Shown: positions 6,084 to 27,337, counted from the first letter of the stretch. The stretch: DNA of 42,470 bases from Myxococcales bacterium (GCA_020846875.1 JADLDB010000193.1:1-42470), one strand, 5' to 3'. Made by a program: numbers and translations. Notes: a model not told the origin generated them from the sequence alone.

Positions 6084-8135
6084 ATGAACAAGCCTCTGCT
6101 GGGAGCTGCGCTCGCTGTGTGCCTCGCCGGTGGCCTCACCGGTTGCTCGAATGCCCCCGCGGGGGGAGGGAGCTCGTCGGGCGGTTCGCTCGGCCTGTCG
6201 CGAGACGACGCGCTGCTCTACGCGGCGGACCCGGACCTCGACGCCGTCTTCGTGATGAACACCTCTACCCTCGAGGTGACGAAGGTGGCCGTGGGGCGCA
6301 CGCCCGAGAAGCTGCTGGTGGCGCCCGACGGCACCGTCTTCGTGGCCAACCGCTTCGGCCGCAGCGTGTCCGTGCTGCGCCCGGGAGAGGCGACCGAGGC
6401 CGCGCGCTTCGCGGTGGGCGTGGAGCCGGTGGGCCTGGCCGTCTCCTCCGACGCGAAGACGCTGTACGTCGTCAACGCCACGTCCCTCACCAGCGCGGAG
6501 ACGGGCACGCTGATGGCCCTCGACGCCGCCACCGGCCAGGTGCGCTTCGAGACGGCGGTGGGCCGCGAGCCGCGCGGCATCACCTTGCTGGGTGACGGCA
6601 AGGCGGCGGTGTCGCTCTTCAAGGACGGCGACGTGGTGCTGGTGGACACCGCCTCCGGCCAGGTGGTGAAGGCCGGCACGAAGGTGTTCGAGCAGCTCAA
6701 CCGGGTGACGCTGGGCATCGACACGCCTTCCTTCGACGACAAGCCCTTGCCCGGGCCCTTCCCGGGCAGCATGTCCGGCACCTCGCGCCCGCGCGGCATG
6801 GAGGCGCTCCTCACCAGCCACGACGGCTCGCAGGTGTTCGCCGCGTCCCTCATCTCCACCGATGGCATCCTCGACACCGGGAAGCCGGATGATCCGCTGG
6901 GCGGGCCGGGCGAGCCGTCCGCGGCGGGCTACGGCGGAGGCAGCTGCGGCTCCACGGCGGTGGCGTCGCCCGCCATCCTCACCTTCTCCGCCGACGGCGA
7001 GGCGCTGGTGGACGACCTGGCCACCTGTGGCGGCGAGAGCCCCGGCGAGCAAGGCGAGCGCCCACCCACACTGCTCACCTCCAACATCCCGGGCATGCCG
7101 GTGCAGGGGCCGCGCGCGTTGGCGCTCGACCCGACGGGCAGCTTCCTCTTCATCGCCAACTTCGACTCCAACAACGTGGCCATCGTGCCCACCACGCAGA
7201 AGGGCTCGCCGTCGGCCTTCGGGGTGAGCACCGCGCCCTCTGCCGTCCCGCGCTCGGAGTTCGGCGTGGGCGGCTCGGTGCGGCAGTTGGTGAACGTAGG
7301 CGCCGGCCCCAGCGGCATCGCGGTGACGCGCGACGGCACCAGGGCCTACGTCTTCAACGCCTTCGACCACTCGGTGTCGGTGCTGGAGCAGCTCAACGGC
7401 CGCGTGGCCAACGTGGGCACTACGGTGCTGGGCGCCGACGTGCTGCCGCCCGACGCGGTGGCCGGCCGGAAGCTCTTCTTCAGCGCGGTGGACTCGCGGA
7501 TGAACAACCCCGCCACCGGCATCAGCTGCGGCACCTGCCACCTCGAGGGGCGCGAGGACGGCCACGTGTGGAACTTCCCCGAGGGGCCGCGCCAGACGCC
7601 GTCGCTGTCGGGGCGCATGCTGTCGAAGACGGCGCCCTTCCACTGGAACGGCGAGTTCAGTGACTTGCTGGCCTTCATGTCGCACACCGTGCAGCGGCGC
7701 ATGGGCGGCTCAGGCGTGACGCCGGCCATGGAGCAGCAGGTGGCGGCCTTCATCGAGTCCATGCCCACGCCGGACAACCCGTACCGGGACACGGTGGCGA
7801 CGGCCCAGGTGGCCCGCGGCGTGGCCCTCTACGAGCGCGCGCAGTGCGCCACCTGCCACGTGGGGGTGGCGCTCACCAACAACACCTTCGCGGACGTGGG
7901 CACCTACGTCACCGCCGGCCGGGTGGTGGACCAGCCGTCGCTGCTGCCGCACGGCGGCCTCAACACCCCGTCGCTGCTGGGGCTCGCGCGCACCGCGCCC
8001 TACCTCCACGACGGCAGCGCGCAGACGCTCAAGGCCCGCCTCCTCCAGGGCAAGGACACCAACCGGCACGGCCTCACCGCCGGCCTCACCGAGGCCGAGG
8101 TGGATGATTTGGTGGCCTACCTGCAGACGCTCTGA
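6084..8135 (+). CDS. Beta-propeller / di-heme cytochrome c peroxidase-like lipoprotein
   Basis: The 683-residue protein starts at the ATG after AAGGACGAG. Its lipoprotein signal ends in LAGGLTGC. Residues 45-450 form a YVTN-type seven-bladed propeller with repeated blades such as LLVAPDGTVFVANRFG, LAVSSDAKTLYVVN, and LALDPTGSFLFIANFDSNNV. The C-terminal 220 residues hold two c-type heme sites, CGTCH near residue 482 and CATCH near residue 588. Around them are motifs typical of bacterial cytochrome c peroxidases/MauG (QTPSLSGR, LNTPSLLGLARTAPYLHDGS, DDLVAYLQTL). It is probably a periplasm-facing lipid-anchored electron-transfer or peroxidase protein. The longer frame from 5979 includes no signal and is not used. 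A strong terminator follows the stop. Confidence 0.88.
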   Translation: MNKPLLGAALAVCLAGGLTGCSNAPAGGGSSSGGSLGLSRDDALLYAADPDLDAVFVMNTSTLEVTKVAVGRTPEKLLVAPDGTVFVANRFGRSVSVLRPGEATEAARFAVGVEPVGLAVSSDAKTLYVVNATSLTSAETGTLMALDAATGQVRFETAVGREPRGITLLGDGKAAVSLFKDGDVVLVDTASGQVVKAGTKVFEQLNRVTLGIDTPSFDDKPLPGPFPGSMSGTSRPRGMEALLTSHDGSQVFAASLISTDGILDTGKPDDPLGGPGEPSAAGYGGGSCGSTAVASPAILTFSADGEALVDDLATCGGESPGEQGERPPTLLTSNIPGMPVQGPRALALDPTGSFLFIANFDSNNVAIVPTTQKGSPSAFGVSTAPSAVPRSEFGVGGSVRQLVNVGAGPSGIAVTRDGTRAYVFNAFDHSVSVLEQLNGRVANVGTTVLGADVLPPDAVAGRKLFFSAVDSRMNNPATGISCGTCHLEGREDGHVWNFPEGPRQTPSLSGRMLSKTAPFHWNGEFSDLLAFMSHTVQRRMGGSGVTPAMEQQVAAFIESMPTPDNPYRDTVATAQVARGVALYERAQCATCHVGVALTNNTFADVGTYVTAGRVVDQPSLLPHGGLNTPSLLGLARTAPYLHDGSAQTLKARLLQGKDTNRHGLTAGLTEAEVDDLVAYLQTL

Positions 8136-22083: not shown

Positions 22084-23205
22084 TCACTCCGCCAGCACCT
22101 GCAGCTCGGTGAGGCGGGCCAACTCGTCCTCGGGGATGTGGGTGCCCGAGGAGCCGGTGTAGCCCAGGTACACCCGGTCGGAGAGCTGCTGGAAGCAGCG
22201 GCGGGCCAGCTTCGACTTCGGGTTCTCCCGCACGCAGGCCTCGAAGAAGAGCAGGTCCACGTCCCACAACAGCGGCGACTTGAGGGCGCCGGCGCAGACG
22301 CCCAGCAGGTAGAGGGCCTCGCCGCGCGCCTTGAGCTTCGGGTGCTTCCCCAGCGCGAGATTCAAATAGCCAGAGGCGCGCAGGTACGGCACGTCGCGGC
22401 GCTCGTCGGAGAGGAAGGTGCGCCCGCCGTCGGCCTTCTGCACCAGCTCCTGCGCACGGCGGTAGAGGGCGTCGGGGCTGGCCTTGAGGGCGTCGAACTT
22501 CTCCTTCTCCCAGGCGGCGACGTCGGCGCGCCAGGCGGCCAGGGTGCCGCGCAGGAAGGGCGGGAGGTCGCTGCGCTTGCCGAGGGTGTCGAGCAGCTCG
22601 GCGGTGGCCTTCGCGTCGTCTTTGACGCGCACCAGGAGCGCCATGGTGTCCTGGAGGGCGCGGGCGTACTCCAGCAGGGCGCGCTCGTTCTTCGGCCTGG
22701 CGTCCAGCAACGCGCGGTACGCGGCCAGCGCGGCGTCGAACTGCCGGGTGGCGGCCAGCACCTGGGCCTTCTCCAGCGGCGCGAGGGCGAGGGCGTCGAG
22801 GCGCTTCTGCACGTCGGCGAAGTCGGCGGGGGCGCGCTCGCGGCTGTGGCAGGTGAAGCACAGGCTGGTCAAGGTGCGCACCCGGAGGCTGACGGCTTCG
22901 TACTCGCCGGAGTCGAAGCGGCGGCGGGTGTCGCCGGCGTAGCGGGCGAAGAGGGTGGAGAGGGCGGCGGTGGCGGGCTCCTGGGCCTTCGGGTCCTCGG
23001 GGAAGGCGTGGCGGAGCGAGGCCAGGGTGTCGAGGCCCTGGGCGATGGCCTGCGCGTTCTTCGGGTCCCGCAAGGCCTCGCGGCTCGCGGTGAGGGGCAA
23101 CAGCCCGGTGAGGGAGAGGAAGGCGTCGCGCATGGTGGCGCGGGTGGGCGCGCCGGCGTCGGGCGAAGCGGCCAGCAGCGCCAGGGGCAGGAAGGCAGAG
23201 AGCAT
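22084..23205 (-). CDS. Secreted c-type cytochrome-like protein with TPR-like helices
   Basis: The ATG at 23205 puts a clear signal peptide first (MLSAFLPLALLAASPDAG); the GTG at 23217 adds four residues. The product has about 373 residues. A single heme-attachment motif sits in SLCFTCHSRERAP near residue 120 in an otherwise helical protein. The helical pairs after it (QFDAALAAYRALLDARPKNE, LLEYARALQDTM) look TPR-like. A periplasmic mono-heme protein is likely. The conserved-looking C-terminus (DRVYLGYTGSSGTHIPEDEL) is unassigned. It is divergent from the first ATP-grasp gene with only 71 bp between starts, but there is no sign that it takes part in peptide biosynthesis. Confidence 0.75.
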   Translation of the reverse strand: MLSAFLPLALLAASPDAGAPTRATMRDAFLSLTGLLPLTASREALRDPKNAQAIAQGLDTLASLRHAFPEDPKAQEPATAALSTLFARYAGDTRRRFDSGEYEAVSLRVRTLTSLCFTCHSRERAPADFADVQKRLDALALAPLEKAQVLAATRQFDAALAAYRALLDARPKNERALLEYARALQDTMALLVRVKDDAKATAELLDTLGKRSDLPPFLRGTLAAWRADVAAWEKEKFDALKASPDALYRRAQELVQKADGGRTFLSDERRDVPYLRASGYLNLALGKHPKLKARGEALYLLGVCAGALKSPLLWDVDLLFFEACVRENPKSKLARRCFQQLSDRVYLGYTGSSGTHIPEDELARLTELQVLAE

Positions 23206-23276
23206 GCGGAGCGCCACCCTACTAGGGCTTCACGGGCGTGCTGTGCCAGATTCTCGGGTGGCCGCGAGGCCGTCGC

Positions 23277-24221
23277 ATGCGCGTGGGCATCTTCGGCTCG
23301 GATGACGACTTGCAGGTGCACGCGGTGGCCCGCGAGGTGCGCGCGCTGGGCTTCGACGACGTGCTGCTGCGCAACGACGCGCTGGACGAGGGCTTCCCGC
23401 TGACGCTGGTGGACGGACGCGTCGTCTACCGGGGGGTGGACACCTCCGGCTTCGCGGGCTTCTACCTGCGCAACATCCCCGCGGCGTACGCGCCGTACCT
23501 GGAAGCCGACGACGGCGAGCTGGTGCTGCCCGGCGACTGGCACGCGAAGTACGAGCGCGCGCGGCAGCAGTCGGCCTTCTACGTCTCCTGGCTGGTGGCG
23601 CTGAAGGCCGCGGGAGCGCGGCTGGTCAACCCGCCGCAGGCCGCCAGCGTGCTGCAGTACAAGCCCTTCCAGTTGGACGTGCTGCGACGGGTGGGGGCGC
23701 GGGTGCCGCGGACGCTCATCAGCAACGACCCCGACGCGGTGCGCGCCTTCCACGCCGAGGTGAAGGACGTCGTCTTCAAGCCGGTGATGGGCGGCGCGTT
23801 GACGCAGCGGCTGGACGAGGACGTGCTGCCGGCGCTCCACCACGTCACGAAGGCGCCCGTCATCTTCCAGGAGCGCATCGAAGGGGACGACCTGCGGGTG
23901 ATGCTGGCCGGCGACGACGTCGTCTCGGCAGTGGCCATTCGCACGCCCGAGCAGCACCTCGACTTCCGCGGTGACCCCAGCTACCGGGACGGTGAGTCGG
24001 CGTACGAGGAAGTGCAGCTGCCCGACGAAGTGGTGCGCTCTTGCCGGGAGGCGGCCCGCGGCTTGGGCCTGCGCTTCGCCGGCATCGACATCAAGCGGAC
24101 CCGCGCCGGGGAGTGGGTGTTCCTGGAATTGAACAGCAGCCCCATCTACCTGGACGTGGAACTCAAGCTGGGGCACCCCATCAGCCGTGGGCTGGCGGAG
24201 GTGGTGGTGGGACGGCGCTGA
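23277..24221 (+). CDS. ATP-grasp ligase, predicted graspetide (plesiocin-type) maturase
   Basis: The 314-residue protein starts at MRVGIFGSDDD; the longer upstream frame is not needed. The fold is RimK/graspetide-like. ATP-binding lysines are in QYKPFQLDVL (Lys129) and VVFKPVMGG (Lys168), followed by FQERIEGDDLRVM (Glu199) and the metal ligands in AGIDIKRT (Asp271) and VFLELNSSP (Glu284, Asn286). ATP-grasp maturases activate Glu/Asp side chains with ATP and join them to Thr/Ser (esters) or Lys (amides). The neighbouring convergent gene encodes 17 TTxxxxEE cores, the known substrate motif of this enzyme class, so ester formation is the expected reaction. It is paralogous to the gene at 25406. 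Confidence 0.9.
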   Translation: MRVGIFGSDDDLQVHAVAREVRALGFDDVLLRNDALDEGFPLTLVDGRVVYRGVDTSGFAGFYLRNIPAAYAPYLEADDGELVLPGDWHAKYERARQQSAFYVSWLVALKAAGARLVNPPQAASVLQYKPFQLDVLRRVGARVPRTLISNDPDAVRAFHAEVKDVVFKPVMGGALTQRLDEDVLPALHHVTKAPVIFQERIEGDDLRVMLAGDDVVSAVAIRTPEQHLDFRGDPSYRDGESAYEEVQLPDEVVRSCREAARGLGLRFAGIDIKRTRAGEWVFLELNSSPIYLDVELKLGHPISRGLAEVVVGRR

Positions 24222-24333
24222 GCTCCACTCCTGAAGCCGCTGGAGGGGTGTGAGGGCGAGGTTTGCCCCAGGCAGCGAGACGTCGATGCCCGCCCCAGGC
24301 CTCGCGCGGACCCTCGGGATGCGACTGCTGGAG

Positions 24334-24360
24334 CCCCCTCCCCGTCGAGCGGGGAGAGGG
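24334..24360. terminator. Hairpin between convergent ATP-grasp and precursor genes
   Basis: CTCCCCG (24338-24344) pairs with CGGGGAG (24350-24356) around TCGAG, and CCC/GGG pairs extend it outward past one mismatch. It lies between two convergent stops, where a bidirectional terminator is expected. There is no T-run, so the efficiency is uncertain. Confidence 0.5.
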
Positions 24361-24374
24361 ACGGGGCGCTCATG

Positions 24375-25310
24375 TCAGCGCTTGCTGCCGCCTTCTTCGC
24401 CGACGGCCTGGGTGGTGGCGCCGCCCCGGGTGCCGCCCTCTTCGCCCACCGCCAGGGTGGTGAAGAGGTCCGGCGGCAGCTTCGTTCCGCCCTCCTCGCC
24501 CACCGCCATCGTGGTGACGTCCGGCGGAGGACGCGTGCCGCCCTCCTCGCCCACCGCCATGGAGGTGACGTCCGGCGGAGGACGCGTGCTGCCCTCTTCG
24601 CCCACCGCCGCGCTAGTGACGTCCGGCGGAGGCTTCGTTCCGCCTTCTTCACCCACCGCCATCGTGGTGTACGTCGGAGGCTTCGCCCCGCCTTCTTCAC
24701 CCACCGCCATCGTGGTGTACGTCGGAGGCTTCGTCCCGCCCTCCTCGCCCACCGCCATGGTGGTGACGTCCGGCGGAGGACGCGTGCTGCCCTCTTCGCC
24801 CACCGCCGCGGAAGTGACGTCCGGCGGAGGCTTCGTTCCGCCCTCTTCACCCACCGCCATCGTGGTGTACGTCGGAGGCTTCGTCCCGCCCTCTTCGCCC
24901 ACCGCCATCGTGGTGTGCGTCGGAGGCTTCGTCCCGCCTTCTTCGCCCACCGCCATCGTGGTGTGCGTCGGAGGCTTCGTCCCGCCTTCTTCGCCCAGGG
25001 CCATGGTGGTGCGCGGCGGCGGCTTGGAGCCACCCTCTTCGCCCACCGCCTTGGTGGTGGCGCCGCCCGGCTTCGTCGGCTTGGCCCCGCCCTCTTCGCC
25101 CACCGCCTTGGTGGTGGCGCCGCCCGGCTTCGTCGGCTTGGTCCCGCCCTCTTCGCCCACCGCCTTGGTCGTCTTGCCGCCTGGCTTGCCCGGCTTCTTC
25201 CCGCCCTCTTCGCCGACGGCCAGCGTGGTGGCGCGGCCCTCCTTCTTCTTCTTGGGCAGCTCGTAGCGGGTAAATGGATTCTTGGGACCTCCGGGACCTC
25301 GGACAGCCAT
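24375..25310 (-). CDS. Multi-core graspetide precursor (plesiocin-like, 17 cores)
   Basis: The ATG follows GGGAGGA. The 311-residue product has a 27-residue leader (containing NPFTRYELPKKKKEGRA) and then 17 tandem units of 13-19 residues. Every unit has the form T[T/S]xA[V/L]GEEG[G/S], followed by a Lys/Arg-Pro linker such as TKPPTY, TRPPPDV or TKPTKPGGA. TTxxxxEE is the core signature of group 2 graspetides such as plesiocin, from another myxobacterium. In those, two Thr-to-Glu ester bonds per core make a hairpin that inhibits serine proteases. Plesiocin's precursor has four cores; this one has 17. Flanking ATP-grasp genes support the assignment. No protease or exporter gene is adjacent. The plus-strand frames across the array are shadows of the repeat. 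Confidence 0.93.
   Translation of the reverse strand: MAVRGPGGPKNPFTRYELPKKKKEGRATTLAVGEEGGKKPGKPGGKTTKAVGEEGGTKPTKPGGATTKAVGEEGGAKPTKPGGATTKAVGEEGGSKPPPRTTMALGEEGGTKPPTHTTMAVGEEGGTKPPTHTTMAVGEEGGTKPPTYTTMAVGEEGGTKPPPDVTSAAVGEEGSTRPPPDVTTMAVGEEGGTKPPTYTTMAVGEEGGAKPPTYTTMAVGEEGGTKPPPDVTSAAVGEEGSTRPPPDVTSMAVGEEGGTRPPPDVTTMAVGEEGGTKLPPDLFTTLAVGEEGGTRGGATTQAVGEEGGSKR
24378..25229 (-). repeat. 17-unit tandem repeat (45-57 bp units) encoding graspetide cores
   Basis: Units of mostly 48-51 bp recur through the precursor gene; the shortest, at the 3' end, is 39 bp. On the plus strand each contains CCCTCTTCGCCCACCGCC or a close variant, which encodes the invariant GGEEGVA in reverse. A 150-bp block of three units at 24567-24716 is repeated at 24765-24914 with only about six differences, so the array has grown by recent block duplication. 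Confidence 0.95.
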
Positions 25311-25405
25311 GGCGTTCCTCCCTGAGTGAATGTGAGGCAGTCGAGATTATCGGTCCCCGACCGCGGCGGTTGCAGAGTATGCCCCCGGTGTCTCCCGGAG
25401 GCGAC

Positions 25406-26251
25406 ATGCGCGTCGGACTCTTCGGCCCCGAGCAGGACGTGCAGGTGCGGGCGCTCGCCGCGGAGCTCGAAGCCCTGGGCGCCGAGCCGGTGCTGATCAA
25501 CGACGACGCGCTCACCCGCGAGGTCCCCACCTCGAGCCTCGACGGGCACTTCCGCCAGCGGGGCGTGGCTTGGGACACGCTGTCGGCGATGTACCTGCGC
25601 CGGCTGGACGCGCCTTTCCTGACGCCCCTCGCGCCGGCCTCCTTCGAGAGCTACGAGGCCTGGTTCATCCACTCCATGCAGGTGCGTGAGCGCTCGTCCT
25701 TCCTGCTGGCGTGGCTGTTGTCGCTGGAGGCGCGCGGCGTGAGGCTCATCAACCCGCCCACCGCGATGAGCGAGTTGATGCTCCCGCCGGCGCAGGAAGC
25801 GGCGCTCCGTCGGGCGGGGGCGCCGGTGGTGCGCGCGGTGGTGAGCAACGACGCCGTGCAGGTGCGCGCGCTGGCGAGGGCCGGCCCTGTGGAGCGCCGT
25901 CCCCTCCTCGACGGCGGGCGGTGGGAGCAGTGGCGCGAGGACGGGCTCGACTCCACCACGCCGCTGTACGTGCGCGAGCGCCTCGAGGAGCCGGTGCGCC
26001 TCGTCCTCGCCGGGGAGGTCGCGGTGGTGGCTCCGCCGGAGCGCGGACCACTGCCGGAGGAGGTGGTGCAGCAGGCGCGCGCGGCGGCGCGGGCGTGCGG
26101 GCTGACTGTCGCCGCCTTCACCGTGGCGCGCCGGGAGGACGCGTGGGTGTTTCTGGAGGTGGACGCGGCCCCGGCCTGGGCGGAGCTGGAGGTGCCCGCG
26201 GTGAAGGCCCTCGCCCGGGCCCTGGCGAGGGAGTTGGTGCGCGCTGCGTGA
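25406..26251 (+). CDS. Degenerate ATP-grasp paralogue of the graspetide ligase
   Basis: The ATG has GGAGG four bases upstream; the longer frame from 25274 would overlap the precursor gene. The 281-residue product aligns end to end with the ATP-grasp at 23277: same start MRVG[IL]FG, same LVNPP/LINPP, RVGA/RAGA and WVFLE segments. Catalytic positions are lost, however: Lys129 is Pro, Lys168 is Arg (VERRPLLDGG), the DLR loop is reduced to PVRLVLAG, Asp271 is Thr (AAFTVARR) and Asn286 is Asp (FLEVDAAP). It is therefore predicted not to catalyse ligation. It might bind the leader, pair with the active ligase, or act as an immunity or regulatory protein. It is divergent from the precursor across 95 bp, probably with shared control. 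Confidence 0.85.
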   Translation: MRVGLFGPEQDVQVRALAAELEALGAEPVLINDDALTREVPTSSLDGHFRQRGVAWDTLSAMYLRRLDAPFLTPLAPASFESYEAWFIHSMQVRERSSFLLAWLLSLEARGVRLINPPTAMSELMLPPAQEAALRRAGAPVVRAVVSNDAVQVRALARAGPVERRPLLDGGRWEQWREDGLDSTTPLYVRERLEEPVRLVLAGEVAVVAPPERGPLPEEVVQQARAAARACGLTVAAFTVARREDAWVFLEVDAAPAWAELEVPAVKALARALARELVRAA

Positions 26252-26380: not shown

Positions 26381-27337
26381 TCACCGCAGCAGCCGCGACG
26401 CGCCCCACAGCGCCGCCCGCACCGCCTGCGTGGCCACCCGCGGCAGCCGGGGCGCCACCTCCACCGGCGCGTCCCACTCGAAGTCCACGAGGCGCGCCAG
26501 GAAGCCCTGCGCCACGCAGCCCTCCAGGCTGAAGACGGTGAGGTCGCCGCAGTGCCGCGCCGCCACCCGGAGGTCTCTGGCCAGCGCCTCCCACGTCAGC
26601 TTGGGCCAGGGGTCGATGCCGCCGCCGGTGCTGCCCAGCCCGAGGGCGCGGCAGCGCGGCGCCCACGCCTCCACCACGCCCGGCCCCAGGGGGCCCAGCA
26701 GCGAGGAGTACAGCATCACCACCTCGCGGTCCGCCTCCACGTCCAGCGCCCCGGCGAAGCGCTGCCAGAGCGTGCCCCGCGCCCCGCGCTCCTCCAGCAG
26801 CAGCGGGAACTGGTACGTCTCCACGTGGTGCCCGTCGGCGCGGATGCGCTGAATGAGGCCCCGGTACTCCGCCCGCGCGCGCAGGAGCCGCCCCTTGTCC
26901 GCCGCGCGCCACGCCCACCGCCCCAGGGTGCGCGCCGGGCGCTGCAGCAGCGAGGACAGCTCGCGCAGGTCCGGCTCGAAGTCCAGGCCCACCGACTCGA
27001 AGGGCAGCCTCTCGTGTCTCACCCAGGCGTGGAGCTCTGTGTACCGGCGCGCCACCGCGGCGGCGTTGTCGAGGGTGGCGAAGTAGCCCTCCTCGCGGGG
27101 CAGGAGGAGCCACGCGCCCACGGGGATGCCTTCGTCCGCCAGGTGCTTCACGACCCGCGCCCGGCCCGAGGAGAGGTCGCGCACGCCCATCGTCACCCCC
27201 GCGCCCAGCGCCTTCAGGTGCCGCACCACGCCCGCGTCGGCGAAGAGGGCCTCCAGCTCCGGCGGGTCCTGCTCGTTGAAGAAGGAGAGCCGCGTCGGGC
27301 GCATCGCCCGCGCACCGTACAGCATCGCGTTCGACAT
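26381..27337 (-). CDS. Hypothetical TIM-barrel-like (glycosidase-like) protein
   Basis: The 318-residue product has no signal peptide. The repeated strand-helix pattern and the motif VGLDFEPDLREL near residue 125 recall the DxE-type active-site strand of glycoside hydrolase TIM barrels. VTMGVRDLSS, IPVGAWLLLP, HVETYQFPLLLEERG and GSTGGGIDPWP are compatible with other barrel strands. No family can be named with confidence. The start may be the ATG at 27337, or MRPTRLSFF at 27304; neither has a strong ribosome site. It is convergent with the second ATP-grasp gene, so it need not be part of the graspetide locus, and divergent from a lipoprotein gene. Confidence 0.7.
   Translation of the reverse strand: MSNAMLYGARAMRPTRLSFFNEQDPPELEALFADAGVVRHLKALGAGVTMGVRDLSSGRARVVKHLADEGIPVGAWLLLPREEGYFATLDNAAAVARRYTELHAWVRHERLPFESVGLDFEPDLRELSSLLQRPARTLGRWAWRAADKGRLLRARAEYRGLIQRIRADGHHVETYQFPLLLEERGARGTLWQRFAGALDVEADREVVMLYSSLLGPLGPGVVEAWAPRCRALGLGSTGGGIDPWPKLTWEALARDLRVAARHCGDLTVFSLEGCVAQGFLARLVDFEWDAPVEVAPRLPRVATQAVRAALWGASRLLR

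Follow-up and report, generated by a model that had tools for sequence, protein, structure and literature searches.

What product is made by a locus in which a long, repetitive precursor gene stands between two ATP-grasp genes? This arrangement occupies positions 23,277 to 26,251 of a 42,470-nt stretch of DNA from a soil-dwelling Myxococcales bacterium (GCA_020846875.1 JADLDB010000193.1:1-42470), referred to here, at its full length, as the window. A sequence-only reading had described it as a plesiocin-type (group 2) graspetide locus with 17 TTxxxxEE cores in one chain; the observation was confirmed and the interpretation is partly supported. The explanation favoured here, with moderate confidence, is that the locus would encode a multi-headed protease inhibitor with a pseudoenzyme partner, expressed in a predation regulon linked to a type III secretion system (T3SS).

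The precursor array, its ligase and their family

The two ATP-grasp genes, G1 and G2, both read forward and enclose the precursor gene, which is reversed, as had been described (Table 1). The precursor open reading frame (ORF) starts with ATG, encodes 311 aa and is real beyond chance. Between the 8-codon cores the proportion of synonymous differences (pS, 0.40) far exceeds that of nonsynonymous ones (pN, 0.084), so the protein on the minus strand is under selection, and its reading frame, leader and cores are found again at more than 20 orthologous loci. A plus-strand ORF (24250-25266) was rejected as the gene; it is a mere complement of the repeats, and both the codon pattern and the orthologs favour the minus strand. 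The leader comprises 27 residues (MAVRGPGGPKNPFTRYELPKKKKEGRA), of which F13 and P19 are invariant and Y16 and E17 nearly so in an alignment of 11 family leaders; a PDB search with it gave no match. The count of 17 cores stands, but not the uniform motif, as 14 are TTxxxxEE and three (cores 9, 13 and 14) are TSxxxxEE. From core to core, position 3 reads L K K K M M M M A M M M A M M L Q. Proline makes up 25% of the linker residues and directly follows K or R at 17 of 22 linker sites. Tandem Repeats Finder detected a 48-bp unit within the array as well as a 198-bp block of four cores, the repeats of which are a sign of recent array growth.

Orthologous loci were found in Archangium, Hyalangium, Pyxidicoccus, Myxococcus and other Myxococcaceae, and carry from 1 to 18 cores, so the length of the window array is not exceptional as had been suggested. 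The largest arrays have 18 cores (L062), 17 (the window), 15 (P. caerfyrddinensis), 15 (a second species), 14, 14, 13, 12, 11 and 10, and the Archangium- and Hyalangium-type loci have one or two. Three arrays are cut, as the contigs of L035, L036/L065 and L039 end inside them; multicore precursors are probably under-counted because repeat arrays break assemblies. Across 175 cores from 24 loci the ring positions are almost fixed (T1 in 172, T2 in 168 plus 7 S, E7 in 174 and E8 in 174), and position 3 is the most variable (2.07 bits, followed by position 5 with 1.32 bits), being L in 61, M in 55, K in 41, Q in 8, A in 4, R in 3 and E in 3. In the P. caerfyrddinensis array L and K nearly alternate at this position. 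The family linkers have P directly after K/R at 176 of 217 sites. The parts of the locus and their conservation are read directly from these alignments, and they indicate a real, conserved graspetide family of variable valency, of which the window locus is a good example, not one unique in size. A variant precursor at 6961-8037 (+) of L064 has about 14 cores of the form xTxAxPEE, in which the first Thr is lost and Pro stands ahead of EE; single rings are predicted for these cores.

G1 is, as judged by homology, a graspetide synthetase from a Myxococcaceae clade that stands apart and has a leader motif of its own. The solved structures that match it best are PsnB (7drm; E 1.8e-44, nearly full length, approximately 38% identity), the 9bou ligase, MdnC and MdnB. 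The match to RimK reaches only 8.7e-8, which places G1 closer to the graspetide ligases than to RimK; a grouping with RimK had been named as evidence against a graspetide locus. Among NCBIfam models TIGR04187 (ATP-grasp ribosomal peptide maturase) fits best (1.4e-34, under its curated cut-off), and G1 shares 58-71% identity with most orthologs adjoining related precursors. It retains the ATP lysines, the glycine loop, the metal ligands and an arginine aligned with Arg233 of the PsnB chain, which we take to be native Arg213, assuming a 20-residue tag on the chain. Elsewhere, a 27-residue stretch at G000:C60:111497-111577 (L005), in a 157-aa frame, is 70% identical to G1 and is possibly a ligase remnant.

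A promoter motif shared with a T3SS cluster

When the ligase-precursor intergenic regions were aligned, a block of fixed spacing, [AG]CAAC-N16-[AC]GANAATC, was found reading towards the precursor. Its -10 part and its spacing resemble those of FliA/sigma-28 promoters. The motif is present in 12 of the 14 loci with at least five cores (nine exact, two with one mismatch and one with two), where it starts 78-121 nt ahead of the leader motif, and is absent from all ten loci with one or two cores, in which the best matches have 4-5 mismatches (Fisher 7e-5, the loci not being independent).

A wider form of the motif has three exact matches in the 7.06 Mb genome that carries the window, and its reversed control has none. 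These matches are at the precursor, at the gene directly after a FliA/WhiG-type sigma gene in a T3SS cluster (L112/L169), and ahead of a large protein of unknown family (L113). A one-mismatch scan of the same genome was noisy (27 matches versus 8 in the control) and was used for picking out candidates only. Around the sigma gene are SctJ, SctN, SctR, SctU and SctV genes, and the region of G000:C65 at about 78-98 kb (L169, L170) is a T3SS cluster with a FliA/WhiG-type sigma gene embedded in it.

The association extends over 79 genomes, of which 33 have both motif and sigma gene, eight the sigma gene only, two the motif only and 36 neither. The motif is therefore present in 33 of 41 genomes with a T3SS-cluster FliA/WhiG-type sigma gene and in two of 38 without (p 3e-12, and 7e-4 within the family), and the reversed motif gave one match in all 79. 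Both motif-only genomes are drafts that are 86-90% complete. In six relatives the motif lies 0.6-1.7 kb from the sigma gene. The promoter motif and its association with the sigma gene are seen in the sequences themselves. Behind the motif are an N-acetylmuramoyl-alanine amidase (Amidase_2), an SLT transglycosylase, CHAP and LysM proteins, an endonuclease-family protein and T3SS-cluster genes, and several of the proteins behind it have a DTFE/SSFE motif after a low-complexity N-terminus.

In Myxococcus xanthus prey lysis depends on a needleless system, T3SS*, whose effectors are unknown (PMC12075869, PMC10433427). The cluster type is the same, with SctJ, SctN, SctR, SctU and SctV, and with the sigma gene and motif inside it; in the literature found, no graspetide had been linked to T3SS*. 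The cluster described here is likely to be a T3SS*. Taken together, the sigma motif, the T3SS cluster and the lysis genes fit a putative predation regulon. Useful by itself is the motif GCAACT-N15-CGANAATC, by which a candidate set of co-regulated prey-lysis effectors can be recognized across Myxococcaceae, and which yields a short list of candidate effectors.

The second ATP-grasp protein

The preferred start of G2 is the ATG at 25406, with CGGAGG ahead of it; an upstream ATG at 25274 was rejected in its favour. A Pfam scan of G2 gave no ATP-grasp match and its similarity to PsnB is weak (1.4e-8). Its AlphaFold2 model (mean predicted local distance difference test score, pLDDT, of 84) shares the PsnB fold (Z 24.6, 2.7 A, 268 residues). 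G2 keeps 48 of the 89 residues that are invariant in the clade, namely 19 of 25 in the N-terminal domain and 13 of 29 and 16 of 35 in the rest, and a stretch of approximately 24 residues is missing. Among the changes are KPFQ to PPAQ, FKPVMGGA to RRPLLDGG, GIDIK to AFTVA and ELN to EVD. Residue alignment shows that both ATP lysines and the metal ligands are lost, on which ground an active second ligase was rejected. From its residues, fold and retained coding bias, G2 is predicted to be a pseudoenzyme, that is, a catalytically degenerate ligase paralog.

No G2 ortholog was found among 96 family genomes, in which the best matches are active ligases. In the tree, G2 falls within the Myxococcaceae G1 clade on a very long branch, and its exact placement is unsettled. 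At related loci precursor and active ligase are divergently oriented; in the window this divergent slot, with the conserved intergenic promoter, is taken by G2, and G1 lies beyond the 3' end of the precursor. If a ligase has indeed turned pseudoenzyme in the ancestral slot, it would be a graspetide partner protein of a new type.

Explanations compared, and the surroundings of the locus

In the favoured explanation G1 would bind the leader and cyclize each core into a plesiocin-like bicyclic hairpin, in which two hydroxyl side chains (Thr/Thr or Thr/Ser) are joined to two Glu side chains, with up to 34 esters predicted per precursor chain. The rings would present loop residue 3 (L, M, K, A or Q in the window) as the protease P1 residue, giving a single chain with heads for different serine-protease classes, held together by linkers with Pro after most Lys/Arg residues, and arrays would expand and contract via tandem duplication. 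In plesiocin, the loop residue corresponding to position 3 reportedly sets protease specificity, and engineered Lys versions are said to inhibit trypsin; if this role holds, the arrays would be natural mixed-specificity inhibitors. G2 would be an old ligase duplicate that lost ATP binding and was retained as a protein, most likely as a leader-binding or scaffold partner of G1. The many-core precursor would be transcribed from the sigma-28-like promoter, and because this is common to T3SS-cluster genes and candidate prey-lysis enzymes, the product probably acts at prey contact, where it may block prey proteases or shield the predator's own secreted enzymes. A bolder version, which we put forward only tentatively, is of a predation factor that strings together as many as 18 macrocyclic heads inhibiting serine proteases. 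The T3SS-cluster sigma factor would drive its expression along with that of the prey-lysis effectors, it would be delivered or set free on contact with prey, and in this species the dead paralog would aid its modification.

Three elements are new, namely the mixed loop residues, the predicted pseudoenzyme and the proposed link to a T3SS-associated sigma regulon. With 1 to 18 heads of mixed loop residues per chain, the valency and mixed specificity of macrocyclic inhibitors become directly studiable, and the promoter link, if true, would tie a family of ribosomally synthesized and post-translationally modified peptides (RiPPs) to the secretion machine of myxobacterial predation, the effectors of which are unknown (PMC10433427). 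Several points count against this explanation. Two multicore loci (L038 and L046) are without the promoter motif, and the sigma-28 assignment combines motif resemblance with co-occurrence in genomes that are related. The precursor itself has no DTFE/SSFE motif and so may be co-regulated and not a secretion substrate. G2 was found in one genome only, and the P1 role of position 3 is taken from work on plesiocin. The chemistry, the inhibition, the sigma specificity and the roles of G2 and in predation are all inferred.

Other explanations were weighed against it. An ordinary group 2 plesiocin locus, in which the precursor is of unusual length and both ligases are active, would account for the TTxxxxEE core, the tandem hairpin repeats and an ATP-grasp ligase of the same fold and residues, with PsnB as the best solved match of G1. 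Plesiocin, however, uses a single ligase (PMC8939145) and its precursor has four cores, and the ATP and metal residues are absent from G2, so that the two flanking genes are not the plesiocin arrangement they had been taken for. Strict membership of group 2 is not borne out either: the published graspetide network uses an alignment score cut-off of 70 (PMC13097080), and among the sequences gathered for this analysis the best score between the G1 clade and PsnB or one of its orthologs is 46.5, whereas G1 reaches 84-131 with members of its own clade. It would therefore not join the group. True PsnB orthologs (51-54% identical to PsnB) occur separately in many Myxococcaceae; of 26 such loci compared (L082-L107), seven have a single-core precursor with an LF-type leader, and a simple motif search gave no precursor at the others. 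The leaders compared beside PsnB orthologs are LF[VI]QDLARIEG-like (LFVQDLARIEG-type), whereas those of the window clade are PFTRYELP-type. The window locus further differs from that of plesiocin in its degenerate second ATP-grasp gene and its sigma-28-like promoter. We regard an ordinary group 2 locus as very improbable. Hardly more probable is a chain that serves in a matrix, as a structural or adhesive protein made rigid by its ester hairpins, and has no inhibitor function. Its Pro/Gly-rich linkers and tandem repeats do resemble structural proteins, but single-core orthologs exist, and a most variable presumed P1 residue between fixed rings is the pattern expected of inhibitors.

The array could instead be a pro-peptide that is cut into 17 small bicyclic inhibitors, its length setting dose and not valency. 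GG or GS, a common RiPP cleavage motif, follows nearly every core, core numbers range from 1 to 18, and the single-core relatives must act as single units; on the other hand no conserved protease gene is present at these loci, and linker Lys/Arg mostly followed by Pro would resist trypsin-like enzymes. We consider such cutting unlikely. A more serious possibility, if still the lesser one, is that G2 is a functionless decaying duplicate, as its restriction to one genome, long branch and missing residues would suggest, and function may have been lost recently after long constraint. Against this, its frame is without stops and its GC content at third codon positions (GC3) is 0.94, similar to G1; when neutral decay was simulated, with G1 as the starting point and 45% identity as the end point, the frame remained open in 0.25% of runs and GC3 never exceeded 0.91, after which plain decay was judged less likely. 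The good ribosome site, the well-kept N-terminal domain and a confident model covering the whole fold also argue for a retained protein.

The window clade may correspond to one of two groups of Carter et al. 2026 (PMC13097080), 34 and 35, both described as having long precursors with repeating motifs; group 35 consists of synthetase and precursor only, as do the loci related to the window, and the available part of that paper does not mention a T3SS-linked promoter or a pseudoenzyme. Corallotide (group 15, Corallococcus) is likewise a myxobacterial and unusually large repeated graspetide, but has five copies of a KxxxD lactam repeat and an oxygenase and a beta-lactamase-like partner (PMC13097080). 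The multicore microviridin system AMdnA/AMdnC is similar in that one ligase acts distributively on several cores per precursor, and differs in having three microviridin cores of another ring pattern (PMC5934393). An earlier graspetide survey started from candidates of at most 150 aa (PMC8939145), and because of this limit long precursors of the window type would escape it.

Table 1. Positions of the locus features within the window
Feature	Position	Strand	Basis
G1, graspetide synthetase (ATP-grasp ligase), 314 aa, catalytic residues intact	23277..24221	+	PsnB, TIGR04187 and ortholog matches
Multicore graspetide precursor, leader and 17 cores	24375..25310	-	ORF, codon pattern, family comparison
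Array of 17 cores T[TS]xA(V/L)GEE, Pro/Lys-rich linkers	24393..25229	-	core alignment
198-bp higher-order repeat, four-core block, 2.4 copies, 91% matches	24479..24963	-	Tandem Repeats Finder
Leader, residues 1-27, [PS]F[TIV][KR]YE[LV]P (PFTRYELP in the window)	25230..25310	-	alignment of 11 leaders
Shine-Dalgarno of precursor, AGGGAGGAA	25315..25323	-	read directly from sequence
Sigma-28-like promoter GCAAC-N16-CGATAATC, 34 nt upstream of precursor ATG	25345..25373	-	intergenic alignment, motif scans
G2, degenerate ATP-grasp paralog (predicted pseudoenzyme), 281 aa	25406..26251	+	residues, fold, coding bias, locus slot

Across 18 other loci, ligase and precursor are the sole genes that travel together, and no transporter, protease or immunity gene recurs beside them. 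An NHLM-type transporter is a frequent neighbour in group 2; a Pfam scan of 13 other window ORFs (part of those in the window) gave none. An Rfam search gave no match. The two genes flanking the locus are unlinked in relatives, on which ground an old shared neighbourhood was rejected. On the G1 side, 60 nt away and divergent, 22084-23217 (-) encodes a tetratricopeptide repeat (TPR) protein with a CxxCH motif that is conserved in relatives, where it is unlinked to graspetide loci. On the other side, 26381-27337 (-) encodes a protein of unknown family which occurs in many Myxococcaceae (42-59%) and is near a graspetide locus both here and in genome G001.
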